Part shown: positions 244-24,272 of the stretch, in pieces
Numbering within the stretch: position 1 is the stretch's first letter
Layout of the letters: each line of letters opens with the position of its first letter
Virus record (IMG/VR): IMGVR_UViG_3300022602_004811
Span: 1 to 25,861 of that record
Source: a virus
Direction: 5' to 3' (one strand)
DNA: 25,861 nt
Program-made: the position numbers and the translations under genes
The notes under the pieces: model-generated
What the model saw: only the letters and a program-made list of their open reading frames with translations
Databases searched by the model: none
Told to the model about the DNA's origin: nothing

Positions 244-1164
244 ATGGATCGCATACAACAGCTCAACTACGAAAAGGACTTTCGCATCGCCTTCTTGGAA
301 TCCAAGGGAGACGGATTCCAACGTCTGTTCGAGAAGCTGATGTCGAAGGCCCACCCTAACGACTTCATGGCATGCCGACCCTGGGGCAACGTTGGAGATC
401 GTAAGAACGACGGGTATCTACCTTCCTCGCGAATCCTTTTCCAGAGCTACGCGCCGAATGAAATGAGCGCCGCCGAGGCCACCAAGAAGATCAACGAGGA
501 CTTCGAGGGGGCCAAAGAGCACTGGGAAAAATATTTCGATGAGTGGACCTTCGTCCACAACGCACCCGATGGGCGTCTGGGCCCCCACATCATCGAAGCA
601 CTGGCCAAACTCAGGCAAGACAATCCGAAGATCAGAATCGGACATTGTGGATACGAGGAAATGCTGGCGAAGTTCCGTCAGTTGAGCCTTCAGGATCTTG
701 AATCCTGGTTTGGCCCCTCGCTGACGATGGAAGCGAATGTCAACCTGGGCTTCAGCGACCTGGCCGCTGTGCTCACGCATATCAGCATCACGCCCATACC
801 CACGACGAGCGAGGTGAAGGACGTATCGCCCGGAAAGATCGAGGCCAATCTTCTGTCTCAGGCTGTCGCCGACTTCCTGAAGATCGGCATGCAGAAGTCG
901 CCGCTCGTTGCACAGTTCTTCAATAGCTGGAAGAACCCAACCTACGGCGAGCAGATCGCGCAGGCGTTCAAGAACGAATACGTGGGGCTACGGGATGGAG
1001 TTCCTCAGCCCCATCCTGATGAGATATTCGGCCGTCTCGAAGCATGGGCCGGGGGCACGGCGAACACCACGCCCGCGCACAAGGCCGCCGTGTTGGCCGT
1101 GATGGCCTACCTGTTCGACAAGTGCGAAATCTTCGAAGATGCTCAAGCGGTGGTGGCGGCATGA
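244..1164 (+). CDS. ABC-3C system effector with nuclease-like N-terminal domain
   Basis: This 306-residue protein is the variable, presumed effector component of an ABC-three-component conflict system. The call rests on context (small middle component and DUF2326 ATPase immediately downstream) and on layout. Residues 1 to about 155 carry FQRLFE (25-30), GDRKNDGY (51-58) and FQSYAP (66-71), a spacing like that of Mrr/restriction-endonuclease-like folds in which an acidic GDxxxDG loop precedes a short strand. Here Q67-S-Y69 stands where E-x-K would be, so catalysis may be altered. The C-terminal half (about 195-306) is helical and fits the shared ABC-3C C-terminal domain that docks on the other components. 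ATG at 244 is the first start in the frame; the stop overlaps the next gene as ATGA. The nuclease assignment is inference. Confidence 0.7.
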   Translation: MDRIQQLNYEKDFRIAFLESKGDGFQRLFEKLMSKAHPNDFMACRPWGNVGDRKNDGYLPSSRILFQSYAPNEMSAAEATKKINEDFEGAKEHWEKYFDEWTFVHNAPDGRLGPHIIEALAKLRQDNPKIRIGHCGYEEMLAKFRQLSLQDLESWFGPSLTMEANVNLGFSDLAAVLTHISITPIPTTSEVKDVSPGKIEANLLSQAVADFLKIGMQKSPLVAQFFNSWKNPTYGEQIAQAFKNEYVGLRDGVPQPHPDEIFGRLEAWAGGTANTTPAHKAAVLAVMAYLFDKCEIFEDAQAVVAA

Positions 1165-1409
1165 TCCTGCCATCCAAGCATCTGCCGCAGGATCGTGCGC
1201 TGCTGACCGTTGGTGCGCATGTTTTGACGTTCCTCGCTCACCCCAAGACTGTCTCCGCGCTCTGGGAGGAATTGAACAGAAATGACGCTGGCTTGGCGGC
1301 GGCGCCCCGGCGCGTTACCTATGACTGGTTCCTGCTCGCCCTCGACCTCCTGTACGCCCTTGGAACCATAGAACTCGAAAGCGGCCTTGTGGCACGGAGG
1401 ACAGCGTGA
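1161..1409 (+). CDS. ABC-3C middle component (MC6-like)
   Basis: This small protein of 82 residues lies between effector and ATPase. It begins MILPSKHLPQDRALL, an opening I associate with the ABC-3C middle-component 6 family, and continues with a PKTVSALWEEL helix and a TYDWFLLALDLLYALG stretch that looks like a winged-helix core. Middle components are thought to bridge the effector's C-terminal domain and the ATPase. Its ATG overlaps the upstream stop (ATGA at 1161-1164), and its stop overlaps the GTG start of the ATPase gene (GTGA at 1406-1409), so the three genes are tightly coupled in translation. An upstream extension in the same frame exists from 1044, but it runs inside the effector gene and looks non-coding. 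The call depends partly on context. Confidence 0.75.
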   Translation: MILPSKHLPQDRALLTVGAHVLTFLAHPKTVSALWEELNRNDAGLAAAPRRVTYDWFLLALDLLYALGTIELESGLVARRTA

Positions 1410-3127
1410 TCCATCACATCTTCAGCACGCTGCCTAGCTTCAAGAATCTTGGCGATCTGAAGCCCGGCCTGAATGTGCTGCTCGCCCAAAAAACCGAAGG
1501 GGCGACCACCAAACAAACACGCAATCGCGCCGGCAAAACCAGTTTCGTTGAGCTGGTGCATTTTCTGCTGGGCGCCGACGCCGGGCCGGACTCAATTTTC
1601 CGTACCCCGGAGCTGGCAGAACATGCCTTTGGCATGGACTTCGATCTGAAGTCAGAACGGACGGTGGTCGAGCGCAGCGGTAGTTCCAAAGCCAAAGTCT
1701 TCGTGACCTTCCCGCCTGCCGCAAAGGTCAAGTTCTCGGCCACCGAGTGGTGTACGTTCCTCGGCGAGCAAATGTTCGGCCTGAGCAGCCTTGAAGCTGC
1801 AGGCAGCAAGCCGCCTTCGTTCCGGTCACTGTTTGCCTACTTTGTGCGCCGACAGGTGAGTGGTGCGTTCATGACACCGGAGAAGCAGGCCACGATGCAG
1901 GGCACCGGCGACATGCAAATGGCGCTGATGTTCCTGCTCGGATTGGACTGGCAGATCGCCCGAGATTGGCAAGCTGTGCGTGATCGCGAAAAGACCCTGG
2001 AAGAGCTGAAGAAGGCGGCTGGGAACGGCGCGTTCGGTTCAATCATCGGCAAGGCCGCCGATTTGCGTACTGAGCTCACCATTCAGGAAGCCCGTCTCAA
2101 GAAGCTCCATGCGGAAGTTGAGACTTTCCAGGTCTTGCCGGAATACCGGGAACTGGAAGTCGAAAGCGCCACATTGACCCGGCAGCTCAACGAGTTGGCC
2201 AACGCAAATACCATCGACTTCTCAACCATTCGTGATCTGGAAAGCGCACTCGCCTCCGAGGTTCCTCCGGACCATGAAGACCTTCAGGCGGTCTATCAAG
2301 AAGCAGGCATCGTGCTACCTGACTTGGTTAAGCGCCGCTACGAGGACGTAAAGAGCTTTCACGAATCGGTGGTGCGTAATCGCAAGGACTATCTGTCTAG
2401 TGAACTCGAAGCGGCCAAGCTGCGTATCGAGCTGCGCGATAGCAAGAAGGCGCAGCTCGACCATCGGCGCGTTGAAATCCTGGGCATTCTCAAGAGCCAT
2501 GGTGCGCTCGAACAGTTTCTCAAGCTGCAAGGCGAACTGGGGCGACTGGAGTCCAAAGTGGAATCATTGCGGCGACGCTTCGAAGCCGCCGAGCAGCTCG
2601 AAGGCAACAAGAACGAGTTGGAGATCGAGCGCAACCGACTCACGATTCGCCTACGGCGTGACTTCACCGAGCAGAAGGATCGACTGGCGGAGGCCATCGT
2701 CGCCTTCGAGGAAACATCACAACGCTTGTATGAATCGGCCGGCAGTATGACGGTCGATGAAACCTCCAACGGACCGGTCTTCAAGTTTCCGATGCAGGGC
2801 GAACGCAGCAAGGGCATCAAGAACATGCAGATTTTCTGCTTCGACATGATGCTTATGCGGCTGTGCACCAGGCGGCAGATGGGACCAGGATTCCTAATCC
2901 ATGACAGCCACATCTTCGATGGCGTTGATGGACGCCAAGTCATCAGTGCATTGCGTCTTGGCTCGGAGATCGCGCAGGAACTTGGCTTTCAGTACATCGT
3001 CACAATGAATGAAGATGATGCTTTCAAGGAAATCATCGAAGGGTTCAACCTTAACGATTTTGTTCTGCCTGTGCGATTGACCGATGCCAGCGAAGATGGT
3101 GGATTGTTTGGCATTAGGTTTGGATAA
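1406..3127 (+). CDS. ABC-3C ATPase, SMC/RecN-like with DUF2326 C-terminus
   Basis: This is a 573-residue ABC ATPase of the SMC/Rad50-like type and the motor or sensor of the ABC-3C system. The N-terminal ATPase half has a divergent Walker A, RNRAGKTSF (39-47). Residues about 180-440 are charged and heptad-like, indicating a coiled coil. The C-terminal ATPase half has a signature-like ERSKGIKN (466-473) and a Walker B/D-loop region FLIHDSHIFDG (496-506), characteristic of DUF2326. Such proteins are predicted to act on nucleic acid or nucleoprotein complexes and to license the effector. The GTG start is chosen because GGAGG lies 5 nt upstream (1396-1400) and the start overlaps the preceding stop. 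The gene ends 23 bp before the convergent HTH gene, with no clear terminator between them. Confidence 0.85.
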   Translation: MIHHIFSTLPSFKNLGDLKPGLNVLLAQKTEGATTKQTRNRAGKTSFVELVHFLLGADAGPDSIFRTPELAEHAFGMDFDLKSERTVVERSGSSKAKVFVTFPPAAKVKFSATEWCTFLGEQMFGLSSLEAAGSKPPSFRSLFAYFVRRQVSGAFMTPEKQATMQGTGDMQMALMFLLGLDWQIARDWQAVRDREKTLEELKKAAGNGAFGSIIGKAADLRTELTIQEARLKKLHAEVETFQVLPEYRELEVESATLTRQLNELANANTIDFSTIRDLESALASEVPPDHEDLQAVYQEAGIVLPDLVKRRYEDVKSFHESVVRNRKDYLSSELEAAKLRIELRDSKKAQLDHRRVEILGILKSHGALEQFLKLQGELGRLESKVESLRRRFEAAEQLEGNKNELEIERNRLTIRLRRDFTEQKDRLAEAIVAFEETSQRLYESAGSMTVDETSNGPVFKFPMQGERSKGIKNMQIFCFDMMLMRLCTRRQMGPGFLIHDSHIFDGVDGRQVISALRLGSEIAQELGFQYIVTMNEDDAFKEIIEGFNLNDFVLPVRLTDASEDGGLFGIRFG

Positions 3128-3149: not shown

Positions 3150-3581
3150 CTACAAACACAATAGCGCCCGCTGCTCATCCCACAGCAACGGCGTGCCAGA
3201 CGCCAGATCAAACAGGGTGACGTGGTCCGGCAATGACTCGTCCAGGATAGCTGTCACGATGTCTGGCGCAAGGGTGGTGAGGTTCACCATCCTGCTGACG
3301 TAGGCCCGGTCCATTCCCTCCATCTCAGCAACCTCGGCCAGATTCCGGGCCTTGCCGGATTCGAGCAGCGCAAGCCAACGGTGCCCACGAGCCAGGGCCA
3401 GTTGGATCGGTGTGGGCTCACTGTCCCACTTCCTTGGCTGCAAGGCTGTGCCGTCGGGCAGCGTGACCGCCTTACGTCGACCTCGCCGCGTGATCTTGAT
3501 CGGGATGGTGACGTTGAAACTCCCATTGCTGGCTGCCACCAGGTCGGCGCTGCCAGTCGCATTGATCTTGATCTCGTTCAT
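3150..3581 (-). CDS. HTH protein of the recombinase operon
   Basis: This 143-residue protein is the last gene of the leftward integration operon. Residues about 80-101 (NLAEVAEMEGMDRAYVSRMV) form a clear helix-turn-helix of the ParB/sigma-factor-like kind, followed by a helical region ending near ASGTPLLWDEQ. The N-terminus (about 20-52) is basic and beta-like, with TRRGRRK. Proteins of this kind commonly accompany DUF2924-type serine recombinases, and a role as directionality factor or operon regulator is plausible, though nothing here proves it. The ATG overlaps the stop of the recombinase gene by four bases (ATGA). The exact family name is uncertain; the DNA-binding fold is well supported. 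Confidence 0.75.
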   Translation of the reverse strand: MNEIKINATGSADLVAASNGSFNVTIPIKITRRGRRKAVTLPDGTALQPRKWDSEPTPIQLALARGHRWLALLESGKARNLAEVAEMEGMDRAYVSRMVNLTTLAPDIVTAILDESLPDHVTLFDLASGTPLLWDEQRALLCL

Positions 3582-4936
3582 GCCGTCACCTCATCAACCG
3601 ACACCTGCTGCGTCTGGAGTTTCAGTTCGGCTGCCAGTCGCTCCAGGCCATTGGGTCGGAATTGCAACTCGACGGTGTGCGGCGTGACCACCACCTTCTT
3701 GATCAGTAGGCGAACGATGCGTTCCTGCTCGGCCGGGAACAACTGATCCCAGACCTTGTCGATCTGCAGCATAGCGATGCAGATCTTGGCCTCGTTCACC
3801 CCGTCATCCATGGCCGTCATCAGTTTGGCGACTCGTGTTTTGAGATCAGGAGCGCGCAAGATCAGGCGCATCTGCTGGACCACGTTCGCCTCCAGCTCAA
3901 TCGCCGGCAAGCGCGGCAGAGCGGACGCTCCTGCATGCTCCTTGTTCTCGCGTGTGTGGATGTAGTACCGGTACAGCTTGCCAGCACCCTTGCGGGTCCA
4001 GGCCACAGTCAGCGCCCGACCGTCGGCGCCCTCGATGATGCCCTTGAGCAGAAAGGGAATGGTCGCGCGGGTGTTGTTGCCCCGCATGCGTGGACTGATC
4101 TTCAAGATTGACTGCACTGCCTCCCAGGTGCTGGGCTCAATCAGGGGCTGGTGTTCGCCCCTGAACCATTCATCCTTGTGCCGCAATTCGCCCAAGTAGG
4201 TCCGGTTGCCCAGGAGTTTGTAAATAAGGCCTTTGTCGATCAGCTTGCCCTCGCGGACGTTGCCGTCCTGGGTGGTCCACGCCTTGGAGGTGACGCCGTC
4301 CATGCGCAACTCTTTCATGAGCTTGGTCGTGGAGCCGAGTTCAACAAAGCGCGTGAATATATGCCGAATGATCTTGGCCTCGCGCTCATTGGGAACCAGG
4401 CGACGGTCTTTCACGTCATAGCCCAGCGGCGGCACTCCTCCCATCCACATGCCCTTGCGCTTGGAAGCCGTGATCTTGTCGCGGATCCGTTCGCCAGTGA
4501 CCTCGCGCTCAAACTGTGCGAAGGACAGGAGCACGTTGAGCATCAGCCGGCCCATGGAGGTGGTGGTGTTGAACTGCTGGGTGACCGAAACAAAGGAAAC
4601 GCCGGCGCGTTCGAACACCTCGACCATCTTGGAAAAGTCGGCCAGGCTGCGTGTAAGACGGTCGATCTTGTAGACAACCACGATGTCGACGCGGCCGTCC
4701 TCAATGTCATTCATGAGCCGGCGCAAACCCGGGCGTTCCATGTTGCCGCCCGAGAAGCCGCCGTCATCGTAATCATCGGCAACCGGGATCCAGCCTTCGC
4801 TGCGCTGGCTGGCCACGTAGGCATGGCCTGCTTCCTTTTGGGCGTCGATGGAGTTGAAGGATTGGTCCAGGCGCTCGTCGCTGGACACCCGGCAGTAGAC
4901 TGCGCATCGCTGGCGCCGCTTGAGGACTTCGCTCAT
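3578..4936 (-). CDS. Serine recombinase (phage/ICE-type integrase)
   Basis: This 452-residue site-specific recombinase cuts and rejoins attachment-site DNA through a covalent phosphoserine link. The catalytic domain occupies roughly residues 8-155: YCRVSS (14-19, nucleophile Ser18, with Arg16), GGFSGGNMERPGL (59-71) and VYKIDRLTRS (88-97), which carries the conserved D-R-x-x-R. A recombinase/DNA-binding domain follows (GVPPLGYD, then LLGNRTYLGE), ending in a helical tail without an obvious four-cysteine zinc ribbon. The gene sits between the DUF2924 gene and the HTH gene with ATGA overlaps on both sides, so it is translated as part of one operon. It is the likely integrase of the element, which suggests that one attachment site lies near this end. 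No att repeat could be confirmed inside the window. Confidence 0.93.
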   Translation of the reverse strand: MSEVLKRRQRCAVYCRVSSDERLDQSFNSIDAQKEAGHAYVASQRSEGWIPVADDYDDGGFSGGNMERPGLRRLMNDIEDGRVDIVVVYKIDRLTRSLADFSKMVEVFERAGVSFVSVTQQFNTTTSMGRLMLNVLLSFAQFEREVTGERIRDKITASKRKGMWMGGVPPLGYDVKDRRLVPNEREAKIIRHIFTRFVELGSTTKLMKELRMDGVTSKAWTTQDGNVREGKLIDKGLIYKLLGNRTYLGELRHKDEWFRGEHQPLIEPSTWEAVQSILKISPRMRGNNTRATIPFLLKGIIEGADGRALTVAWTRKGAGKLYRYYIHTRENKEHAGASALPRLPAIELEANVVQQMRLILRAPDLKTRVAKLMTAMDDGVNEAKICIAMLQIDKVWDQLFPAEQERIVRLLIKKVVVTPHTVELQFRPNGLERLAAELKLQTQQVSVDEVTA

Positions 4937-5433
4937 TTGCCTGCTCCCTTCTTGCCGGTGGTTTTCTTTGCAGCGGTTGACTTCACCCCGAAAAACACAG
5001 GGCCAGACCAGGCTGTGCCGGTGATCTCCTTAGCGATGCGCGACAGGCTCTGGTAACGGCGACCATCGAATTCGTACTGGCCATCGACCGTAGCCATGAC
5101 CCGATACTCCTTGCCTTGGTATTCGCGGGTGAGAACGGTGCCGGCCATGAGCCGGATGTCGCGATCAAACTTCTTGTTTTGTCCAGATTCCAGGATGGCC
5201 TGGATTCGGCGCTTGTTGCGGTCGACCATGTTGCGGTCGAGCTTGCGGAACTCGATCTCCTGCAGTCGGTAGGCAATGCGCCGCTCAAGGAACTGGCGGT
5301 TGTGGGTAGGGTTGTCTGCGCCGAACAGACTCTTCCAAAGTGCCTTGATGTCAAGCATGGACAGGTCGGGCAAGCTGGTGATTCGTGCCAGCACCGACGG
5401 CGGCGTGGCGTAGGGTGATTGCGTGGTGGTCAT
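4933..5433 (-). CDS. DUF2924 protein, recombinase partner
   Basis: This 166-residue DUF2924 protein belongs to a family found almost always beside serine recombinases in proteobacterial prophages, with no proven biochemical role. Visible family features are an N-terminal helical part with the DIKALWKSLFG motif, then NRQFLERRIAYRLQE, a basic middle, and a C-terminal part with TREYQGKEYRV and GRRYQSLSRIAKEITGT. The latter resembles a small DNA-binding domain (helix after YQSLSRIA) ending in a lysine-rich tail. The ATG at 5433 is preferred over the longer reading because GGAG sits 5 nt upstream and the start overlaps the stop of the upstream small gene (ATGA). It is most likely an accessory factor for recombination. 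Confidence 0.88.
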   Translation of the reverse strand: MTTTQSPYATPPSVLARITSLPDLSMLDIKALWKSLFGADNPTHNRQFLERRIAYRLQEIEFRKLDRNMVDRNKRRIQAILESGQNKKFDRDIRLMAGTVLTREYQGKEYRVMATVDGQYEFDGRRYQSLSRIAKEITGTAWSGPVFFGVKSTAAKKTTGKKGAGK

Positions 5434-5645
5434 TTGGACTCCGTGACTTTGGTTGACGAGTCCGTATGAACGCTTCGGGTGCCAGAATAGGCAAGTCCTA
5501 AATGGCTCTTCGAGGCCACATTTGCTGACTTCGCGACAGTTTGTTCCCATACCCGGGAAATGCCCCTCGCTAGCAGGGCAGACACCTCGTCCATGCGTTC
5601 CGAGACGGACATGGAGTCAGGTGGGCGGCGGTTGATTTCTTGCAT
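5430..5645 (-). CDS. Small protein heading the integration operon
   Basis: This protein of about 71 residues is translationally coupled to the DUF2924 gene by an ATGA overlap. The N-terminal part contains SVSERMDEVSALLARGI, a convincing amphipathic helix; the tail contains LGLAYSGTRSVHTD. A related tail, LGFLWKQSVHTN, is encoded in the same orientation just upstream of the DUF6900 gene near 23720, which argues that the reading frame is real. No function is known to me. The start is uncertain: ATG at 5645 has AAGGA some 11 nt upstream, while a TTG at 5672 would add nine residues but has no well-placed ribosome binding site. It probably forms part of the recombinase operon. Confidence 0.6.
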   Translation of the reverse strand: MQEINRRPPDSMSVSERMDEVSALLARGISRVWEQTVAKSANVASKSHLGLAYSGTRSVHTDSSTKVTESK

Positions 5646-5790
5646 TGGTTGCCAGTCCTTGGTGTTCAACAATCGAAGGAAAAATTGTCCTCATAGGGAA
5701 GTGGCAAAGCCAGAAGGGAGTTTTAGATTGGTGCGGAAGGATGAGGAAAATATCCAACAGGAGCCCAAAAGCTCAATATGAATGAGGGCC

Positions 5791-5820
5791 TTTACATAGA
5801 GAACGATCGTTCTCTATAAT
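5791..5820 (+). promoter_or_regulatory. Promoter of the LexA-like gene, giving a leaderless transcript
   Basis: TTTACA (5791-5796) and a perfect TATAAT (5815-5820) are separated by 18 bp. The start point expected 6-8 nt after the -10 falls at about 5827, exactly where the GTG (5827) and ATG (5830) codons of the LexA-like gene lie. No Shine-Dalgarno sequence is present. The messenger should therefore be leaderless, as for lambda cI from PRM. Confidence 0.8.
5796..5817. promoter_or_regulatory. 22-bp perfect palindrome, probable repressor operator
   Basis: The half-site ATAGAGAACGA is followed immediately by its exact reverse complement, giving 22 bp of perfect dyad symmetry. It fills the promoter spacer and touches both hexamers, so a bound dimer would block RNA polymerase. 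This is the expected binding site of the LexA-like protein encoded just downstream (autorepression). It could also reach the leftward integration operon, whose first start lies about 150 bp away. It does not match the gamma-proteobacterial CTGT-N8-ACAG SOS box. Confidence 0.8.
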
Positions 5821-5826
5821 TGCGGC

Positions 5827-6426
5827 GTGATGAAAGCAATCAACGACCACGAACACCTCTCCACACTGCAGAGCTATTACGCCGAGCATCGAGTGTTGCC
5901 GTCCTACGCCCGCCTGATGAGCCTGCTTGGCTTTGCCTCCAAGTCAGCAGTCAAGAAGGTTCTGGAGCGACTAGAGGGGGTTGGCATGCTCGAACGAACC
6001 CCCGATGGCGACTGGTCGCCAAGCGAACAATTTTTCGAGCGCGTCATTGCGACCCAGCCCGTTCCGGCTGGCATGCCGATCTCAGCTGACAGCGACGTTC
6101 ACGAACAGATCACTATCGATCGGTTCTTGATCCAGCAGCCAGCCAAGACAGTGCTCATCCGAGTCAAGGGCGACAGCATGGTGGAGGCAGGCATCCATGA
6201 CGGCGATTTGGCCGTGGTGGAGCGCAGGACCGACGCCATGCAAGGCGACATCGTGGTCGCGGTCGTTGATGATCAATTCACACTAAAAACACTTGCACGA
6301 GACAAAGACGGATATCACCTGTTGCCCGCTAATCCAAATTACCCGGTAATTCGGCCAAGTAATAGCGAGAACGGCAAGCTCGAGATTTTTGGCGTCCTGG
6401 TTGGCCTTGTGCGCAAATACCCATGA
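5827..6426 (+). CDS. LexA-like self-cleaving transcriptional repressor
   Basis: This 199-residue S24-peptidase repressor has full LexA architecture. The N-terminal winged helix (about 8-56) contains LPSYARLMSLLGF and AVKKVLERLEGVGMLER, matching the LexA DNA-binding domain. The cleavage site is A81-G82 (VPAGMP), with Ser117 in GDSM and Lys154 in FTLKT completing the catalytic dyad at nearly the E. coli LexA spacing. RecA-stimulated autocleavage, and so induction by DNA damage, is expected. It is transcribed from a promoter overlapped by a 22-bp palindrome and appears leaderless; GTG at 5827 and ATG at 5830 are both possible starts. It heads an operon with the 412-residue and 317-residue proteins (12-bp gap, then overlap), so it probably controls their dose. 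Whether it is also the phage immunity repressor is unclear. Confidence 0.92.
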   Translation: MMKAINDHEHLSTLQSYYAEHRVLPSYARLMSLLGFASKSAVKKVLERLEGVGMLERTPDGDWSPSEQFFERVIATQPVPAGMPISADSDVHEQITIDRFLIQQPAKTVLIRVKGDSMVEAGIHDGDLAVVERRTDAMQGDIVVAVVDDQFTLKTLARDKDGYHLLPANPNYPVIRPSNSENGKLEIFGVLVGLVRKYP

Positions 6427-6438
6427 GGAACCATCGCC

Positions 6439-7677
6439 ATGAAAATCTTCTCTCCAGCCCACTTCCTGCGCCATGTCTCGATGCCAACTCTGCGAGAGTT
6501 CACAGATGCTCACCCAATTGCCTCCCGCCTGACCATCGACTGGGACAGTGATCCCGACACTTTGCCGGCCAAGCTCAACGCAGCTATTGAGGCGCTGCAT
6601 GCGTCGTTGAGTGCCGATAACTTTTCTGCTGACGAAGCTTCGGCGATTGGCGAAGATCTGCGTCTCTGGCAGGATGATCTGCGGCGCGTCCACCTCTTGA
6701 CCAACGATCTGGCAAGCAATGAGTTCCATGTCGCATGTGCAGACGACACGGAAGCACTCGAAGCTTTTGCCAGTCGTGATACGAGGGAGAAGGCGCTGTG
6801 GGTATTTCATGCCCGCGACAAATTGTTCCGTGACGTTGAGTTGAACCTTGCTTTCCAAGCGAAAGCCAATGGCAAATACTGGAAAAAGCACCGTATCGAG
6901 GCCGGTCTAGACCTGACAAACGAGCGAGAGAAGTTGGAGGCGTTCAGCCATGAGGTGGCTAAACTCTTCGAAAAATCCGGTGGTGGCAAGAGCACCCATA
7001 TTGAGCAAAGCGTTCACGCATCGGATGGCAGTGTCCAATTGACCATCTATGTTGAAGGTCCGATCACAGCGCTGGCGCATTTCACCGAAAACAAGTTCAA
7101 CCGTGTGTCCACGCGTATAGCTCTGGAGACTGCTGTCGTCTATCAACCCGCCACGGGTGTGATCGAGAGTGTGGTCAAGGGCGGATCGAAGAATCACCAG
7201 ACCGTGCTTCAACTGTTTGGCAAGCATGTGGTCGGTCGTGACATTCAGCCAGAAGAAATTGAGAAGGCTCGCTTCAAACTCAATGAACTGCGGGATGGGC
7301 TGCAGACTTTTGACGATCTGTCTCATTTCGGAGTTGAAAAAATCCGCTTACGCCGTGCCCAGTTCAGACCGCGCGCAAACACCGGCACGTCCTTTCGCAT
7401 CGAAGCATCACCTGAGCAGGATCAGGATGATGCGATTGAACTGGCACACAAAACTCTGAAGGTGCAGCATTCCTTCGAGACAGAGTACAACCTTGATGGC
7501 GCATCCGTACTCGTCTACCTAGCACCGGTGGATGGACAAAAGCCCAAGCGGTTCAGCTTTGACATTTATTCGACGGGCTCATCCACGATCAAGAACTTAT
7601 CGGAAAAGAACCAACCCATTGCCAATGCCGTGCTTCAGTCGCTCAATGTCATTGAGGCCGAGGAGGCAGTCGCTTGA
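6439..7677 (+). CDS. Unrecognised 412-residue protein of the LexA-like operon
   Basis: I do not recognise this protein. It starts at ATG 6439, 12 bp after the repressor gene, with GAGGA some 8 nt upstream. The N-terminal 170 residues are mostly helical and charged (LRLWQDDLRRVHLL; EKALWVFHARDKLFRDVEL; YWKKHRIEAGLDLTNEREK). The rest alternates beta-like segments (VQLTIYVEGPITAL, RIALETAVVYQP, SVLVYLAPVDG, KRFSFDIYSTGSST) with helices. There is no signal peptide and no membrane segment. A GGGKST string near residue 182 resembles a P-loop but lacks the preceding strand and spacing. The gene overlaps the next one by four bases, so the two products are probably made together and may form a complex. 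Being downstream of a damage-responsive repressor suggests an inducible or lysogeny-maintained function such as defence or toxicity; that is inference. Confidence 0.85.
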   Translation: MKIFSPAHFLRHVSMPTLREFTDAHPIASRLTIDWDSDPDTLPAKLNAAIEALHASLSADNFSADEASAIGEDLRLWQDDLRRVHLLTNDLASNEFHVACADDTEALEAFASRDTREKALWVFHARDKLFRDVELNLAFQAKANGKYWKKHRIEAGLDLTNEREKLEAFSHEVAKLFEKSGGGKSTHIEQSVHASDGSVQLTIYVEGPITALAHFTENKFNRVSTRIALETAVVYQPATGVIESVVKGGSKNHQTVLQLFGKHVVGRDIQPEEIEKARFKLNELRDGLQTFDDLSHFGVEKIRLRRAQFRPRANTGTSFRIEASPEQDQDDAIELAHKTLKVQHSFETEYNLDGASVLVYLAPVDGQKPKRFSFDIYSTGSSTIKNLSEKNQPIANAVLQSLNVIEAEEAVA

Positions 7678-8627
7678 GCTCCGTACAGGTCAATGCCATG
7701 GGTCTGCTCTGCAACTTGCTAGAGCAGACCAAGCCGCAGATCAATGGTGCTGCATTGATGGGTGGCGAGTTTGGCGATGGCGGACGTCAACTGATCCATG
7801 AGCGGCTGCTTGTCATAGGTCCCTATCTGTCCTATGTAACCTGTCCCGACTGCCAAATTGAATTGGCGCGTGTTGTAAGGACGGTTGGCGTTGATCAAGC
7901 CTTACTCCATTGTGATGAGTGCGGTGAGTCGACGGCTGGAGGTGAACTCCTCAAAACCTACACAGTCAGTCTGACCAAATTCGTTGATCGGTTGGCTTCG
8001 AGCCTGGAATTACAGACGACCAATCGCAAGCAGATCGACCCGGATGTCTCATGGCGCCTGGGCTTGTACGAGCACAAGCGTGGAAAAGCGCAGACCTGGT
8101 ATTTTGCGCGGCACCTTGGCCAACCCATGGTTGCCAAGCATCTGCTCGATCAGATCCGCTCAGACCATTCCACCCAGTCGGCCAAGATCCTCACAAGCGC
8201 TACAGTGCCATTGCCTGATGGCTCGCCCTTGGCTGGCTACGACGTGGTAAACCTTTCATCCGTGGCACGACTGTCCCAGAGCTGTTTCCTGTTCTTCGAA
8301 GACGGTATGGCCTCAACAGTCCAGCAACCCATAGAGGAAATCATGCCGCAGACTTCTCTTAGATACTTGCGCGACAAGGCCTGGGCGTTCGTCGAGGGTG
8401 TTAAGTACGAGCTGGAGGGCATGCAGCAGAAAATTCTGCTTGCGCTGATGGATGCCCACGCGCATCGCCTGGAGGGCAAGCAGATCGCAGATCGATGCGG
8501 CTCCGATGCATTTCCGTTTCAACCGGCGAAGTATTTCGGCCGGAACAATGAGGTCTACAAAGCCTTCGTCAGGTACGTGCCCGGTGACAAGGTTTATGAG
8601 TTGATTGTCAGTAACGAGAATGAATAA
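7674..8627 (+). CDS. Unrecognised zinc-ribbon protein (317 aa) of the LexA-like operon
   Basis: I do not recognise this protein. It has a probable zinc ribbon formed by CPDC (57-60) and CDEC (80-83). The centre contains WRLGLYEHKRGKAQTWYFAR and YDVVNLSSVARLSQSCFLFFED. The C-terminal region from about residue 240 (AFVEGVKYELEGMQQKILLALMD...EGKQIADRCG) looks like a winged helix, so nucleic-acid binding is likely. The start is TTG at 7674: a GAGGAGG lies about 8 nt upstream (7659-7665), and TTG overlaps the upstream stop as TTGA; an internal ATG in the same frame at residue 9 is the alternative. Before the IS21 insertion, the next gene of the operon began 31 bp after this stop. Together with the 412-residue protein it forms a conserved-looking unknown pair. 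Confidence 0.83.
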   Translation: MSSVQVNAMGLLCNLLEQTKPQINGAALMGGEFGDGGRQLIHERLLVIGPYLSYVTCPDCQIELARVVRTVGVDQALLHCDECGESTAGGELLKTYTVSLTKFVDRLASSLELQTTNRKQIDPDVSWRLGLYEHKRGKAQTWYFARHLGQPMVAKHLLDQIRSDHSTQSAKILTSATVPLPDGSPLAGYDVVNLSSVARLSQSCFLFFEDGMASTVQQPIEEIMPQTSLRYLRDKAWAFVEGVKYELEGMQQKILLALMDAHAHRLEGKQIADRCGSDAFPFQPAKYFGRNNEVYKAFVRYVPGDKVYELIVSNENE

Positions 8628-8654
8628 ATTTTTTGAAATTTTTGGCGAAAGGAC

Positions 8655-8662
8655 GATATGAC
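8655..8662. repeat. IS21 target-site duplication, left copy
   Basis: GATATGAC occurs directly before the CCCTGATGG left end of the element and again directly after its right end (11271-11278). An 8-bp duplication is within the range known for IS21-family elements. The copy contains the ATG of the small gene now found at 11274. Confidence 0.8.
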
Positions 8663-8713
8663 CCCTGATGGCCACCCAAATTCCCCCACTTATGGCCACC
8701 TCAAACTCCTCCA
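8663..8713 (+). repeat. IS21 left terminal inverted repeat
   Basis: CCCTGATGGCCA is followed by CAAATTCCCCCA (8677-8688), TGGCCACC, and a degenerate CAAACTCCTCCA (8702-8713), with a 25-bp period. It matches the complement of the right end apart from a one-base length difference and a few substitutions. Confidence 0.85.
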
Positions 8714-8816
8714 CCTGAATTGATCGGGGACAGGGTCTCAACGCCGACACCGTCGGCACCTGTGGGCAGGACGCATGTTCTGGCCTTCCTCGAAGGAAGG
8801 CCAAGGAGTGAATGTC

Positions 8817-10442
8817 TTGAAACCCAACCAACGCGCCACCGTCATCACGCTGCTGGAGCGCAGCACCCCACAGCGTGAGATCGCCCGCATCACGGGCATC
8901 GACCGCAAAACCATTCGCAGCTACCACCAGCGCTGGCTTGCCGATATTTCAAATTCCCCCAGGGTGGCCACCGGCTCTGAGGCCGTGGCCACTCAAATTC
9001 CCCCACCCTGGCCACCGGCTCGTGCCTCCACTTCCTCCAGTCTGTGCGAAGTTCACCGTGAGTTCATTGAGGCCCAGCTGCTCTTGCGCCGCAACGCCGT
9101 GAGCATCTACCAAGACCTGGTTGATGCTCACGGCTTTAGCGCCGCCTACAACAGCGTCAAACGCTTTGTGCGTGCCTTGCGCAAGAAGACGCCCGAGCAG
9201 TTTGACCGCCTGTCCTTCCTACCTGGCGAAGAGATGCAGGTCGATTACGGCGAAGGTGCGCCGACCTTGGTACCCGGCTCCGATCGCTACAAGAAGCCCC
9301 GCTTATTTGTCGCCACACTGCGCCACTCCCGGCGCAGTTTCCGCCGGGTGGTCTGGAAGTCCAGCCAACAGGTATGGGCCCAATTGCATGAGCAAGCGTT
9401 TCGCTACTTCGGCGGCTGCCCCCAGTACGTGGTGCTGGACAACCTCAAGGAGGGCGTGATCAAGCCCGATTTGTACGAGCCCGAGCTCAACCCCGTGTAT
9501 GCGGCCATGCTCGAGCACTATGGCGTGGTGGCCGATCCGGCCCGCGTGCGTGATCCCAATCGCAAGGGCACTGTGGAGCATGCCATCGGCCACACCCAGG
9601 CCACCGCATTGAAGGGCAAGCGCTTTGAATCGATCGAGGCCCAGAACGAGTTCCTGGAGAATTGGGAGACGAACTGGGCCGCCAAGCGCATCCACGGCAC
9701 CGAGCGCCAACAGGTGCAGGCCATGTTCGAGGCCGAGCGCTCACACCTCAAACCCTTGCCCCTGCTGGGCATGCAGTACTTCACACAAGGGGTACGCACC
9801 GTGTGCGATGACAGTTGCGTACGTGTGGACCACAGCAGCTACGCAGCCCGCCCTGCAGCCATTGGCTCCGTCGTGCTGGTGCGCATCTTTGAGCGGCGCA
9901 TCGAGATTCGGGATCTGCAAGGCGCTTTGCTGCGCACCCACGCCAAGGCCGAGCGGCCCGGCTCAGTGGTACTGCCCGCGCACGAGCGGGTGTTCAACCC
10001 ATCGCGCGAGACGCGGTTGATCCTGCGCCAGGCCAAAGAAATCGGCCAGCATGCCAGCCGCCTGTGTGAGCTGATGTTTGCAGCCGAGGGCCGGGTGGGC
10101 CAAAGAAAGCTCTGGGGCATCGTGGGATTGACCAAACGCTACCCGGCTATCTGCATTGACAGCGCCTGCGCCCAGGCCTTGGAGCAAGGGGTCTACAGCT
10201 ACAACCATGTCAAGACTTTGAGCGAGCGTTTGTTTGCCAGCGCGATGGCGAGCATGGACGAGGGGGCAAACCATGGCTCTGATGGTGTTGCCGGTGATTC
10301 CCTCGAAGAGGGCCTGCTGGCCCAGCAGCATGAGCTCATTCGCCAGGCTGACGAGTATGCGGATTTGTTCACCCATGCGGCCATGCACGCCGGCGCGGCC
10401 GTGAGCCGGGCCATGGATGCGGCCCAAGGAGGTCAGGCATGA
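8817..10442 (+). CDS. istA: IS21 transposase IstA
   Basis: This DDE-type integrase/transposase of about 541 residues cuts and joins the element ends. An N-terminal helix-turn-helix (TPQREIARITGIDRKTIRSY) precedes an RNase H-like core with the catalytic acids visible in MQVDYGEG, YVVLDNLKEG and KGTVEHAIG (D, D, E). The C-terminal part contains the beta-rich and helical region that contacts IstB. The TTG at 8817 is favoured because AAGGAG (8803-8808) lies 8 nt upstream and the protein then starts KPNQRATVITLLER like its relatives; GTG 8808 and ATG 8775 are longer alternatives in frame. Two extra copies of the terminal repeat motif lie inside the coding region at 8950-9005. The stop overlaps the istB start (ATGA). 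Confidence 0.95.
   Translation: MKPNQRATVITLLERSTPQREIARITGIDRKTIRSYHQRWLADISNSPRVATGSEAVATQIPPPWPPARASTSSSLCEVHREFIEAQLLLRRNAVSIYQDLVDAHGFSAAYNSVKRFVRALRKKTPEQFDRLSFLPGEEMQVDYGEGAPTLVPGSDRYKKPRLFVATLRHSRRSFRRVVWKSSQQVWAQLHEQAFRYFGGCPQYVVLDNLKEGVIKPDLYEPELNPVYAAMLEHYGVVADPARVRDPNRKGTVEHAIGHTQATALKGKRFESIEAQNEFLENWETNWAAKRIHGTERQQVQAMFEAERSHLKPLPLLGMQYFTQGVRTVCDDSCVRVDHSSYAARPAAIGSVVLVRIFERRIEIRDLQGALLRTHAKAERPGSVVLPAHERVFNPSRETRLILRQAKEIGQHASRLCELMFAAEGRVGQRKLWGIVGLTKRYPAICIDSACAQALEQGVYSYNHVKTLSERLFASAMASMDEGANHGSDGVAGDSLEEGLLAQQHELIRQADEYADLFTHAAMHAGAAVSRAMDAAQGGQA
8950..9016 (+). repeat. Internal copies of the IS21 terminal motif inside istA
   Basis: CAAATTCCCCCA occurs at 8950-8961 and 8994-9005, each followed by TGGCCACC (8965-8972; 9009-9016), with another GTGGCCAC at 8985-8992. 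This is the same motif combination as at the element's ends. It lies in the segment joining the HTH to the catalytic core of IstA. Confidence 0.8.
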
Positions 10443-11203
10443 ACATGACCGAGATCGATAACGCTTTGCGTCAGCTGCGCCTGTCGGGCATGCAGCAAAC
10501 GCTGAGCACACGCGCCATGCAGGCCCAGGCCAGCCAGGAGTCATTCTTGGAGACCTTCGCCGCCTTGCTGCAAGACGAGCTGGAGCGGCGCAGATCGGTG
10601 CTGCTCGATCGCCGCTACAAGCGCTCAGGGCTGGATGAGAAGGCCTCCTTGGCAGACTTGGACTGGCGCTTTAACCCCAAGATACCCCGGGCTGCGTGCT
10701 TTGAGTTGCACACCTTGAAGTTCATCACCGAAGGGGCCAATGCGTTGATTGTGGGCAAACCGGGCACGGGCAAAAGCCATGTGGCCAAGGCGCTGGCGTA
10801 CCAGGCCACGCTGCAGGGCTATGACGTGCGGTATTTGGAGGCGGACACTGAGTTTGCGCGGTATGCGCTGGCACCCAGCCAAGACAGAGCGAACATGCTG
10901 CGGGCATGGGTCAAGCCGGATTTGCTGATCGTGGACGATTTGTTTCTGGCCAGGCGGATCACGGCGGAGGCGGCAGAAGTTTTGCAGGCGATTGTTCACC
11001 AGCGCTACAAACTCAGGCGAGCCATGGTGGTGACATCCAACAGGGTGGTGCAGGACTGGGGCAAGTATCTGGGGGACGTGACCATGGCCAGCACGATCCT
11101 GGACAGGTTGATGCACCGCTGCGTGATGCTGGAGTTTGAGGGCAAGAGCTACAGGCTCAAGGAGGCGGCGGCACGCTTGGCCATCCAAGCTGACGCGTCA
11201 TAA
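10439..11203 (+). CDS. istB: IS21 helper ATPase IstB
   Basis: This 254-residue DnaC/DnaA-like AAA+ protein assembles on target DNA and stimulates the IstA transposase. The Walker A motif is GKPGTGKSH near residue 103, and Walker B is LLIVDDLF near residue 160. Sensor and arginine-finger regions follow (VVTSNRVVQDW; STILDRLMHR). The length is normal for the family, with no frameshift. The ATG overlaps the istA stop, giving fixed stoichiometry by translational coupling. It ends just inside the right terminal repeat. Confidence 0.95.
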   Translation: MNMTEIDNALRQLRLSGMQQTLSTRAMQAQASQESFLETFAALLQDELERRRSVLLDRRYKRSGLDEKASLADLDWRFNPKIPRAACFELHTLKFITEGANALIVGKPGTGKSHVAKALAYQATLQGYDVRYLEADTEFARYALAPSQDRANMLRAWVKPDLLIVDDLFLARRITAEAAEVLQAIVHQRYKLRRAMVVTSNRVVQDWGKYLGDVTMASTILDRLMHRCVMLEFEGKSYRLKEAAARLAIQADAS

Positions 11204-11218
11204 TCTGACCGCCCTGCC

Positions 11219-11270
11219 TGGGGGAATTTGGGGTGGCCACGGGTGGGGGAATTTGAACTGGCCATCAGGG
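11219..11270 (-). repeat. IS21 right terminal inverted repeat
   Basis: Read on the minus strand it begins CCCTGATGGCCA, then has CAAATTCCCCCA twice (11244-11255 and 11219-11230) with the same 25-bp period and GTGGCCACC between them. It begins 16 bp after the istB stop. Confidence 0.85.
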
Positions 11271-11278
11271 GATATGAC
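11271..11278. repeat. IS21 target-site duplication, right copy
   Basis: GATATGAC abuts the right end of the element and matches 8655-8662 exactly. Its ATG (11274-11276) is the start codon of the downstream small gene. Confidence 0.8.
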
Positions 11279-11516
11279 GAAAACACTGGTTTCACAGGAT
11301 CAAATTTCGGCGTGGATGACGTCGGAATTGCAAAAAATCGACGAATGTCAAGATTGCCAAATAAAGGGAATTGTCCCTCTGCAGTTTCCAGATGAAGATG
11401 GTTGCAATTGGTCTGATTCGTTGACAGTCAACAGCGGAGGAGTTCCCCCCGAAATATTGGTCCCTCATGTAAGAAGGATAGTTGCAGAGGCAAAGACAAG
11501 ATTTAATTTGGAATGA
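11274..11516 (+). CDS. Small unrecognised protein (80 aa), promoter and RBS cut off by IS21
   Basis: This hypothetical 80-residue protein begins MTKTLVSQDQISAWMTSELQ and has CQDC (about 26-29), then PDEDGCNWSDSLTV and a helical end RRIVAEAKTRF. The start codon lies inside the IS21 target duplication. Joining 8662 to 11279 restores an operon in which AAAGGA (8648-8653) stands 4 nt before this ATG, 31 bp after the stop of the 317-residue gene. The insertion therefore removed its ribosome binding site and put 2.6 kb of insertion sequence between it and the LexA-like promoter; only CAGGGG directly before the ATG could substitute. Base composition is much more AT-rich than in its neighbours. It overlaps the next gene as ATGA. 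Function unknown. Confidence 0.75.
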   Translation: MTKTLVSQDQISAWMTSELQKIDECQDCQIKGIVPLQFPDEDGCNWSDSLTVNSGGVPPEILVPHVRRIVAEAKTRFNLE

Positions 11517-11815
11517 TTGAGGTGGGTGAATTGAATTTCAAAACTGCAAAATGTGAGCGCTCAGGTGAGCAAATCCTCTTATCCGACGGATGGATTGTCT
11601 GTAACGCGCCATCGGGTGAATGGTCGTTTGTAAGTATCGATGCGAACGAGAACACGTTTGACTACCACGTGGAGCTAACTGCTTTGGTCAAATCGCCTGA
11701 AGCGTTGGTTGATTGGCTTGCGCACATAGGCGAAAAAACGTGGTTCAAGCCGGAAAAATTTTTTGAATTTTTCAAAAAATTTCGAAAAGAAAACAATATG
11801 TACGGATGTCTTTGA
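11513..11815 (+). CDS. Small unrecognised protein (100 aa), AT-rich
   Basis: This hypothetical 100-residue protein is coupled to the previous gene by ATGA. It reads as a compact alpha/beta protein: beta-like FKTAKCE, ILLSDGWIVCNAP and EWSFVSIDAN, then helices ALVDWLAHIG and EKFFEFFKKFRKEN. Its size, acidic beta-rich N-terminus and pairing with another small gene are reminiscent of immunity or antitoxin proteins, but there is no family match I can name. AT-rich codon use sets this pair apart from both flanks, suggesting a separate origin. A strong hairpin terminator follows about 65 bp downstream, closing the operon. Confidence 0.72.
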   Translation: MIEVGELNFKTAKCERSGEQILLSDGWIVCNAPSGEWSFVSIDANENTFDYHVELTALVKSPEALVDWLAHIGEKTWFKPEKFFEFFKKFRKENNMYGCL

Positions 11816-12066: not shown

Positions 12067-12291
12067 TTGCAACCCACAGAACCCGTCCGACATCTCAACC
12101 AGCGGCAGCTTGCCGAACGCTGGGATTTGAGCGAAGCCACCCTGGAGCGCTGGCGCTCGGAGGGCATCGGCCCCGTCTTCCTCAAACTGCAAGGCCAGGT
12201 CCGATACCGGATCGAGGATATCGAAGCTTTCGAAGTCGACAGCCTGCGCAAGAGCACGTCCGAGCGTGAAGTCAGCGGAGGTGCAGCATGA
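12067..12291 (+). CDS. AlpA/MerR-like HTH protein, first gene of the early operon
   Basis: This 74-residue DNA-binding protein has an excisionase-type winged helix: LNQRQLAERWDLSEATLERWRSEG is the helix-turn-helix and GQVRYRIEDIEAFE the wing and following helix. Such proteins (AlpA, Cox, Xis) act as excision factors or early regulators in prophages. Being the first gene of the replication operon, it may control the switch to excision or early transcription. The start is TTG at 12067, supported by AAGGAG (12055-12060) six bases upstream. The stop overlaps the next start (ATGA). Confidence 0.82.
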   Translation: MQPTEPVRHLNQRQLAERWDLSEATLERWRSEGIGPVFLKLQGQVRYRIEDIEAFEVDSLRKSTSEREVSGGAA

Positions 12292-21118: not shown

Positions 21119-21160
21119 AACCCGCCCGGTGGCCCATGTGGCAATACCCGGCGGGTTTTT
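21119..21160 (+). terminator. Rho-independent terminator before the methyltransferase gene
   Basis: AACCCGCC-C-GG pairs with CCGGCGGGTT (21148-21157) with one bulged C, and a run of five T residues ends at 21160. It lies only 14 bp before the methyltransferase start, so read-through or antitermination would be needed for early-operon transcription to reach that gene. Confidence 0.75.
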
Positions 21161-21174
21161 CATTTCTGGTCCTC

Positions 21175-22425
21175 ATGAATCCCATCCACATCGAATACCG
21201 CCAGGTCGACGCACTGATCCCCTATGCCCGCAATGCCAAGCAGCATTCGGAGGCACAGGTGGCCCAGATCGCGGCCAGCATCCGGGAGTTCGGCTGGGGC
21301 GCTCCGATCCTGATCGATGGCCAGAACAACGTTATCGCTGGTCACGGCCGGCTATTGGCAGCCCGCAAGCTCGGTCTGCCCGAGGTCCCGGTTGTGCCGC
21401 TGGAGCACCTGTCCGACACCCAGCGTCGCGCCCTGATCCTGGCCGACAACAAGATCGGCGAGAACGCGTCTTGGGAGGATGACCTGCTGGGCATTGAGTT
21501 GGCAGATCTGAAAGACGCGGGCTTCGATCTGGGCCTGACTGGCTTTTCGCAAGAGGAGTGGGAAGCACTGATCGCTGGTGAGGAAGCCACGAAGGATGGC
21601 CTCACCGATGAAGATGCCGTGCCCGAGGTCAGCGAGACACCGATCTCAAAGGCGGGTGACATTTGGATCCTGGGTGAGCACAAGGTGCTGTGTGGTGACG
21701 CCACCAAGGTCGATGATTTCAAGGCCCTGCTGGGTGAGGAACTGGTCGACATGACCTTCACCGATCCGCCCTACAACGTGAACTACGCGAACACGGCCAA
21801 GGACAAGATGCGTGGCAAAAACCGCCCCATCATGAACGACAACCTTGGCGAAGGCTTCGGCAGCTTTTTGTTGGACGCATGCACGAACATCCTGACGCAC
21901 ACCAAAGGGGCGGTCTACATCGCCATGAGTTCATCTGAACTGGACACGCTGCAGTCTGCCTTCCGAGGCGCGGGCGGTCGCTGGTCCACGTTCATCATCT
22001 GGGCCAAAAACACATTCACGCTCGGACGCGCAGATTACCAGCGCCAGTACGAGCCCATCCTTTACGGCTGGCGTGATGGTGCTGACCACTTCTGGTGTGG
22101 CGCCCGAGATCAAGGTGACGTCTGGAGTGTCAAGAAGCCACAGAAGAACGACCTGCACCCAACGATGAAGCCAGTGGAACTGGTCGAACGTGCGGTGCGC
22201 AACAGCAGCAAGACCCGCGACCTGGTGCTCGATCCATTCGGTGGCTCTGGTTCCACGCTGATTGCCTGCGAAAAATCAGGACGCCGTGCTCGGCTCATTG
22301 AGCTTGATCCCAAGTACGTCGATGTGATTGTTCGTCGCTGGCAGGATTTCACCGGTTTGAAAGCATTGAAATCAGATGGTTTGAGAACCTTTGATGAAGG
22401 CTCGATAGAAGCAAATCCAGCGTGA
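21175..22425 (+). CDS. ParB-domain / DNA methyltransferase fusion
   Basis: This 416-residue protein joins a ParB/Srx-like domain (about 1-90, with GAPILIDGQNNVIAGHGRL at 42-60) to a beta-class amino-methyltransferase. DPPY (197-200, motif IV) precedes the AdoMet-binding DPFGGSGST (353-361, motif I), which defines the beta class and means N6-adenine or N4-cytosine methylation. No restriction enzyme gene is adjacent, so it is most likely an orphan phage methyltransferase that protects against host restriction or modulates expression. ATG 21175 is used; a longer reading from 21136 would be translated out of the terminator stem. Confidence 0.92.
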   Translation: MNPIHIEYRQVDALIPYARNAKQHSEAQVAQIAASIREFGWGAPILIDGQNNVIAGHGRLLAARKLGLPEVPVVPLEHLSDTQRRALILADNKIGENASWEDDLLGIELADLKDAGFDLGLTGFSQEEWEALIAGEEATKDGLTDEDAVPEVSETPISKAGDIWILGEHKVLCGDATKVDDFKALLGEELVDMTFTDPPYNVNYANTAKDKMRGKNRPIMNDNLGEGFGSFLLDACTNILTHTKGAVYIAMSSSELDTLQSAFRGAGGRWSTFIIWAKNTFTLGRADYQRQYEPILYGWRDGADHFWCGARDQGDVWSVKKPQKNDLHPTMKPVELVERAVRNSSKTRDLVLDPFGGSGSTLIACEKSGRRARLIELDPKYVDVIVRRWQDFTGLKALKSDGLRTFDEGSIEANPA

Positions 22426-22987: not shown

Positions 22988-23470
22988 TCAGTCGGTGATG
23001 CGGTAGAACCGTTGACCACCGGACTCCTTCGCCGATGTGATCTTCAAGCCGAGCTTCTTCTTGAAAGCGCCGGCAAAGGTACCGCGCACCGTGTGCTGCT
23101 GCCATCCCGTGGCTTCACAGATCTGCGCGATTGTGGCGCCTTCGGGGCACCTGAGCATGGCAATCACCTGCGCCTGCTTGCTGTTGTCCCGAGTGCGGGG
23201 CTTCGCATCTGTCGCCGCTTCAATGATTTCGTCGAGGGCCTGGCTGGTGATGGGTGCCTTGCCAGGTACACCCAGGGCTTCGTAGCCTTCGGCAGCGATG
23301 AACCAGTCCTTGCCGTCGTAGGTGATCAAGGCACGTTTGAATAGGCCGTCGATCACCTTCTGGCGGGCACCCCCCTTGATTTTCTCGGGGAACCAGGTGA
23401 TCTTGCCTTCAGTGTACTGATGGGCATGAGCCAGGATGGCGTGTTGGGCGGGCGTAAGTTGCATGTTCAT
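22988..23470 (-). CDS. DUF3489 protein
   Basis: This 160-residue protein has the DUF3489 domain in its C-terminal half: KQAQVIAMLRCPEGATIAQICEATGWQQHTVRGTFAGAFKKKLGL, a winged-helix DNA-binding fold followed by the typical end GGQRFYRI. The N-terminal half (LTPAQHAILAHAHQYTEGKITWFP) is a second wHTH-like part. It is common in prophages and integrated elements near DUF2924 or DUF6900 genes; its function is unknown but probably regulatory. GGAG lies 6 nt before the ATG at 23470. It follows the DUF6900 gene by 12 bp on the same strand. Confidence 0.87.
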   Translation of the reverse strand: MNMQLTPAQHAILAHAHQYTEGKITWFPEKIKGGARQKVIDGLFKRALITYDGKDWFIAAEGYEALGVPGKAPITSQALDEIIEAATDAKPRTRDNSKQAQVIAMLRCPEGATIAQICEATGWQQHTVRGTFAGAFKKKLGLKITSAKESGGQRFYRITD

Positions 23471-23805: not shown

Positions 23806-24171
23806 ATGCCCCGCAGCGCGCCCACACCCTGTCGATACCCGGGTTGCCAAATGGTGCTGGCGGTCCCCGGTTACTGCGATGCGCACCGACCTGTGATTCA
23901 CCACGATTACGGTCGCGCCAGACGACGGTTCGATCCTGAGGTCGACTTTTACCGATCTGGCCAATGGCGCTCGGTCAGGGCCAATTTCCTGCTGGAGAGC
24001 CCGTTGTGTGTGATTTGCCTGGGTGCGGAGCGCTACGTCCCCGCCACCGTGGTCGACCACATCCTGCCAATCAAAGATGGAGGTGGTCGCTTTGACGTCG
24101 CCAACTTGCAGTCGTTGTGCGTGTCTTGTCACAACCGCAAGACCGCACGCGAGACTGCCCAGCGGCGCTGA
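23806..24171 (+). CDS. Phage HNH endonuclease
   Basis: This 121-residue HNH nuclease has two zinc-binding CxxC pairs, CVIC (68-71) and CVSC (105-108). They frame the catalytic core VVDHILPI (82-89), the central Asn in FDVANLQ (Asn100) and the final CHNRKT (His109, Asn110). Three further cysteines (9, 14, 24) in CRYPGCQMV...YC may bind another zinc. In HK97-like phages such enzymes sit directly before the terminase genes and are needed with the terminase for cutting at cos, and the same order is seen here. The ATG at 23806 is used; upstream readings overlap the antisense DUF6900 leader. Confidence 0.92.
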   Translation: MPRSAPTPCRYPGCQMVLAVPGYCDAHRPVIHHDYGRARRRFDPEVDFYRSGQWRSVRANFLLESPLCVICLGAERYVPATVVDHILPIKDGGGRFDVANLQSLCVSCHNRKTARETAQRR

Positions 24172-24272
24172 CCCGGGGGTGGGTCTGTTTTTTTGGAGGC
24201 CTCGGCGCGGCGATGCGCGCGTGAGGTCAAATTTTTGCGCGTGCAAATTGAAAATCTTTTTTTTGGATCCTC
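24172..24272. other. Putative cos region between HNH and terminase small subunit
   Basis: This 101-bp gap combines a G run (CCCGGGGGTGGGTC), T runs (seven and eight T) and alternating GC-rich blocks (GGCGCGGCGATGCGCGCG; TTTGCGCGTGCAAA, an imperfect palindrome). No coding potential is visible. Cos sites lie in this position in phages with the same HNH-terS order, so the assignment rests on context alone. Confidence 0.35.

Follow-up and report, generated by a model that had tools for sequence, protein, structure and literature searches.

The stretch of DNA analysed here, referred to as the window, comprises 25,861 nt of the virus record IMGVR_UViG_3300022602_004811 (IMG/VR), and coordinates given without a locus name are positions within it. 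It carries an operon in which a gene for a LexA-family repressor is followed by the genes of two large proteins, here called B and C (Table 1). As given in a preliminary description of this DNA, lexA and B are separated by 12 bp, while B and C overlap by 4 bp. No terminator-like sites were found between positions 5500 and 8800.

The lexA-B-C operon and the pairing of B with C

The assignment of the first gene is based on a TIGR00498 match of 111.7 bits, above the curated cut-off of 110.95, together with domain scores of 25.3 for PF01726 (cut-off 23.7) and 97.5 for PF00717 (cut-off 23.3); the Peptidase_S24 match lies at 5e-28. Both the cleavage site A81-G82 and the catalytic residues S117 and K154 are invariant in 51 of 51 aligned relatives. 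Upstream of the gene, our analysis added two features that the preliminary description did not contain, namely a sigma-70-type promoter and, inside its spacer, a perfect 18-bp palindrome which occurs as a single copy in the window (0 expected). Its core, GAAC-N4-GTTC, is found at the LexA promoter in 42 of the 54 LexA loci, while just 8 further copies occur in 609 kb; away from LexA promoters it represents background, its density being no higher than in loci without LexA. This shape is that of the SOS box of Gram-positive bacteria, whereas CTG-N10-CAG is expected in beta- and gammaproteobacterial hosts. Thus, the host LexA probably does not control the phage box. In addition, the divergent recombinase operon might be a target of the box. 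Judged from these sequence features, lexA-B-C appears to be an intact, self-regulated operon with predicted binding of LexA to the palindrome, and, by analogy with the LexA family, its expression would be induced by DNA damage.

Residues 1-409 of B align to positions 1-409 of the PHROG 37634 profile (4e-45), and distant relatives of B match this profile over essentially the full length at 3e-37 to 1e-90. By profile alignment, B is a member of PHROG 37634, a family without assigned function. For C, no family match was obtained in Pfam, NCBIfam, PADLOC or PHROGs; the same collections provided no function for B, and profile searches against PDB sequences with B (two alignments) and C returned nothing convincing. 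The earlier statement that neither large protein can be placed in a known family is thus borne out, apart from the functionless PHROG.

B and C occur as an adjacent pair in about 90 distinct loci from betaproteobacteria, IMG/VR contigs and distant Pseudomonadota relatives, with distant members mostly being about 20-35% identical. C adjoins B in all 20 genome loci and likewise in the IMG/VR contigs, where the exceptions are contig edges and an odd 4.9-kb contig (L076). A genome sample of the phylum yielded a distant B in 13 further genomes of 397 (E = 1e-12 to 7e-4), and a Candidatus Tenderia plasmid added one more. Wherever the contig continues and the frames were read, the distant B is followed by a C-like gene of about 305-340 aa, either overlapping or a few bp away. 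An automatic count of C-less loci was not used, since it misses C genes that are seen directly (L005, L007, L008) or are too diverged for the profile. Searches by tblastn with B of the window and three distant relatives found no match in annotated phages and, among plasmids, only the Ca. Tenderia gene, which is annotated as a hypothetical protein; tblastn with C against plasmids gave none. Eight C proteins were aligned, and the C of the window shows 15-46% identity to the other seven. Its zinc-ribbon cysteines persist in some branches but are missing from others (distant relatives L106, L113, L127 and L138), where the surrounding protein is retained, which argues that the metal site is neither essential nor defining for the C family. 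As far as the compared loci reveal, B and C are an obligate adjacent pair.

Regulator exchange, phage backbone and cargo

In the position ahead of B, which we call the regulator slot, the surveyed B loci carry LexA in 54 cases, an ImmA-like M78 protein in 14 and no recognised regulator in 9, while 16 further loci begin too near B (contig edge) for the slot to be read. In both cases examined, the M78 domain is accompanied by an XRE-type helix-turn-helix (HTH), fused to it in L011 and adjacent in L125, and transcription of the ImmA-type gene leads away from B in most of the distant relatives. Judged by this survey, LexA is only one occupant of an exchangeable slot, and the strict LexA linkage assumed earlier is not supported. 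The simplest reading is that each element has one operator and one constant output, B-C. In three loci, a conserved gene whose product has about 175-180 aa separates the XRE/ImmA-type gene from B (L011, 5331-5873; L012, 4860-5381; L045, 1240-1785); the 'TRVFADTNVILEAF' start of this product is suggestive of a PIN nuclease, and there is no Pfam match.

The gene order around the operon is conserved: a ParB-HTH-like gene, the serine recombinase, DUF2924 and a small protein are followed divergently by the regulator, B, C, an Xis-like gene and recombination/replication genes. For LexA, B, C, recombinase and DUF2924, the pairwise evolutionary distances are correlated with each other at r = 0.88-0.96, compared to r = 0.46-0.73 between these module genes and two replication genes, which correlate with each other at 0.95. 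The terminase large subunit is present in 4 of 12 records of the lineage, the small subunit in the window. B-C is found mostly inside this phage backbone, in every surveyed member of the lineage and never as an exchangeable cassette. B and C thus belong to the core of the lysogeny/integration module in a lineage of temperate tailed phages and not to its variable cargo.

Table 1. Position and assignment of features at and around the lexA-B-C operon.
Feature	Position	Strand	Remarks
ParB-HTH-like small protein, recombinase operon	3150-3581	-	weak match; conserved neighbour
Large serine recombinase, probable integrase	3578-4936	-	PF00239 2e-40, PF07508 4e-11
DUF2924 protein, integration module	4933-5550	-	1e-39
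Small divergent gene, conserved neighbour	5430-5672	-	no Pfam family
Sigma-70-type promoter TTTACA-18-TATAAT	5791-5820	+	11/12 consensus matches
Predicted LexA operator AGAGAACGATCGTTCTCT	5798-5815		core GAAC-N4-GTTC; inside promoter spacer
LexA-family self-cleaving repressor, 199 aa	5827-6426	+	TIGR00498, Peptidase_S24; invariant active-site residues
Protein B, 412 aa	6439-7677	+	PHROG 37634; predicted helical N-terminal domain and alpha/beta domain
Protein C, 317 aa	7674-8627	+	TTG start; zinc-ribbon-like region (Cys57, 60, 80, 83), C-terminal winged-helix-like region
Left 8-bp target-site duplication GATATGAC	8655-8662		direct repeat
IS21-family element, ends CCCTGATGGCCA...TGGCCATCAGGG	8663-11270	+	istA 8775-10442, istB 10439-11203
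Right 8-bp target-site duplication GATATGAC	11271-11278		contains ATG of D80
D80, 80 aa, AT-rich	11274-11516	+	cargo; no family; otherwise in L022 only
E100, 100 aa, AT-rich	11513-11815	+	cargo; weak PHROG 12459 match (0.02); otherwise in L022 contig only
Excisionase/AlpA-like HTH protein downstream of operon	12067-12291	+	PHROG 66, HTH_17

Downstream of C, the previously noted IS21 insertion is corroborated by the IstB match to PF01695 (2e-49), an IstA with rve and Mu-transpos_C_2 domains, the 8-bp direct repeats and the contig L022 (B 91% identical), in which the junction of C, D80 and E100 is present at the same site without the insertion sequence (IS). The latter junction also sets the original gap between C and D80 at about 30 bp, in agreement with the 31 bp given for two small AT-rich genes before the insertion; both genes are indeed AT-rich, but the earlier start of the D80 reading frame lies inside the IS. 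The insertion separates D80 and E100 from the operon promoter and from the sequence immediately upstream of the D80 start codon. Among the relatives fetched, D80 and E100 were found in L022 only; elsewhere, different genes lie between C and the Xis-like gene, among them the toxin-antitoxin genes YafQ/RelB (L018, 8236-9001) and HigB (L070, 6094-6815). By this distribution D80 and E100 are cargo outside the conserved unit, and they were rejected as part of a conserved system. The suggested survey of co-occurrence does not support the proposed four-gene system: B and C always stay together, LexA is replaceable and D80/E100 appear in a single one of the relatives fetched.

Further genes of the window comprise a three-gene ABC-3C-type unit at 244-3127 (CTD10, MC6, CTD10/DUF2326), which matches the PADLOC candidate PDC-M68A/B (PDC-M68B, 8e-148), shows weaker similarity to Lamassu LmuB and is likely to be real defence cargo of the element. 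A ParB-like domain fused to a DNA methyltransferase (PHROG 498, 2e-158) is encoded at 21136-22425 and a DUF3489 protein at 22988-23470. An HNH endonuclease and the terminase small subunit lie at 23806-24737, the right end being the start of the packaging module.

Predicted folds and possible roles of B and C

A structural model of B, built from 20 sequences (predicted local distance difference test, pLDDT, 78; predicted template modelling score, pTM, 0.55), was compared to known structures by Foldseek. Hereby, the top 11 PDB matches are all CENP-N/Chl4 from human and yeast (probability 0.97-1.00, best E 8.2e-5), followed by a sharp drop to a probability of 0.14 for the next match, while the superpositions reach TM scores of at most 0.46 with root-mean-square deviations of 7-15 Å. 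The search of BFVD with B gave nothing clear. Alignment of B with human CENP-N and yeast Chl4 by hhalign, run with shuffles, stayed at noise level; as this comparison does not connect human CENP-N with yeast Chl4 either, it has no power for this kinship. Among the Pfam matches of the window there is none of the PF05238 type, and global alignment of B with CENP-N, Chl4 and RdgC was uninformative. Hereby, the CENP-N and Chl4 queries exactly matched PDB entries, and the E. coli RdgC query aligned with RdgC proteins fetched by PF04381. B is acidic, with a net charge of -13 (residues 1-143, -10; family median, -8), and in terms of overall rather than surface charge does not share the basic DNA-binding feature of CENP-N. 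We give the CENP-N-like match, as a fold lead from a predicted model, roughly balanced chances of being correct; the chances that it reflects homology are low, which makes it a lead and not a membership. The structural matches of C are OmpR-type and other winged-helix DNA-binding domains, with probabilities up to 1.00 and E values not below 0.04.

On this basis, we propose that LexA would be bound to the single palindromic operator in its own promoter spacer and thereby hold down lexA-B-C, until DNA damage leads to RecA-stimulated self-cleavage of LexA and release of the operon. In other branches, B-C would be under the control of an ImmA-type (M78 protease) module that is usually transcribed away from it; hence the invariable output of the switch would be B-C and not LexA. 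The two proteins most likely function as a complex, in which the winged-helix domain of C may anchor to phage DNA with B as a scaffold, at the step leading from lysogeny to excision and replication. A conserved B-C complex that is switched by LexA or an ImmA-type module and acts at prophage induction is our best reading of the locus, and we hold it tentatively, at close to an even chance. B-C is an unassigned two-gene unit that is fixed in a phage lineage across Pseudomonadota and wired, in different branches, to two unrelated damage-associated types of switch, and its activity is therefore likely what the damage signal is for.

Several observations weigh against this proposal. The exact box is missing from at least 12 LexA loci, several of which begin right at the end of a contig or are members of other branches, and some B-C loci show no recognisable regulator. 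The acidic character of B argues against DNA binding by B itself, and the winged-helix matches of C are individually weak. Moreover, the distance correlation between B and C is no higher than that between B and LexA or B and the recombinase, so that a B-C complex is not singled out. Finally, the searches turned up neither an isolate nor an annotated phage that carries B or C.

Alternatively, B and C might be a unit for recombination direction or excision control, which is made on induction, binds the large serine recombinase and turns integration into excision. Most loci that are long enough have B-C between the recombinase and replication genes, and the recombinase distances track those of B best among the genes compared (r = 0.949, rho = 0.80; LexA, C and DUF2924, 0.88-0.91). 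However, the length of B and the recombinase, which exceeds that of all other proteins compared, lowers the noise and inflates this correlation, a small excisionase-like HTH protein already follows B-C, and known recombination directionality factors are mostly single, smaller proteins. We consider this explanation unlikely.

More far-reaching is the idea that bacterial viruses have in B a true homologue of CENP-N/CENP-L, and the inner-kinetochore fold a prokaryotic source or cousin; together with its winged-helix partner, B would then operate on phage DNA as a complex that is switched by LexA/ImmA. We regard it as rather improbable; the CENP-N-like prediction, if confirmed, would bear on the origin of this fold.

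The same matches could also be read as a CENP-N/RdgC fold, B then modulating RecA or the SOS signal and feeding back on LexA cleavage, since Chl4/Iml3 has been reported to be RdgC-like (PMC4080450). B sits behind RecA-dependent regulator types, and dampening of the host's damage response by a mobile element has been reported for ICEBs1 (PMC11841131). Against this stands that the 50 structural matches listed for B do not include RdgC, that the profile comparison of B with RdgC by hhalign is at noise (probability 0.08) and that B has no PF04381 match, which leaves a quite improbable alternative.

No better placed is the earlier proposal of a lysogen-expressed defence or superinfection-exclusion system. 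It would account for two unknown proteins that are expressed from the repressor's own operon in a phage carrying defence-type genes elsewhere, but neither B nor C has a PADLOC match and tight LexA control would keep the pair low in the lysogen. The core position of B-C, mostly inside this backbone and fixed in the lineage, is unlike that of a swappable defence cassette and favours a function in induction that is released by damage. Of the preliminary description, the general outline is supported: an operon of unrecognised proteins that is headed by a repressor, is probably inducible by damage and lies between integration and replication modules. The four-gene system, the strict LexA linkage and the defence role are not supported. 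Very improbable, finally, is a partition-type nucleoprotein complex that stabilises an extrachromosomal form of the element, for which the CENP-N-like matches of B, the ParB-HTH-like gene close to B-C and one relative on a mobilizable plasmid (CP013100) could be cited, as no partner ATPase was recognised adjoining B-C, most relatives adjoin an integrase and B is acidic.

Comparison with known systems

The closest relation of B is to PHROG 37634, which it matches over essentially its full length, although the available description of this family gave neither the pairing with C nor a regulator. The model of B and CENP-N/Chl4 are each described as a helical domain at the N-terminus that precedes an alpha/beta domain, in CENP-N the pyrin-like and CENP-L/N homology domains; the differences are the lack of detectable sequence similarity, the low TM scores, the acidic charge and a bacterial host without nucleosomes. 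The likeness to RdgC, a protein of bacterial DNA metabolism, would be an indirect one through the Chl4/Iml3 complex, which was reported to resemble both RdgC and TBP (PMC4080450).

Regarding its regulation, the operon resembles LexA-led operons such as lexA2-imuA-imuB-dnaE2, an autoregulated LexA-controlled operon, in that LexA heads the operon and is predicted to repress it via its own promoter. Here, however, the operon belongs to a phage lineage, and neither B nor C has a meaningful match in Pfam, NCBIfam or PADLOC, DNA polymerase and Imu models included. The ImmR/ImmA switch of ICEBs1-type elements finds its likeness in those relatives of the locus in which an M78 protease, accompanied by an XRE-type HTH in the examined cases, lies next to B-C, mostly in divergent orientation. 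This arrangement is present at other B-C loci and absent from the window, whose slot holds LexA and whose element is a tailed phage with a serine recombinase rather than a conjugative element.

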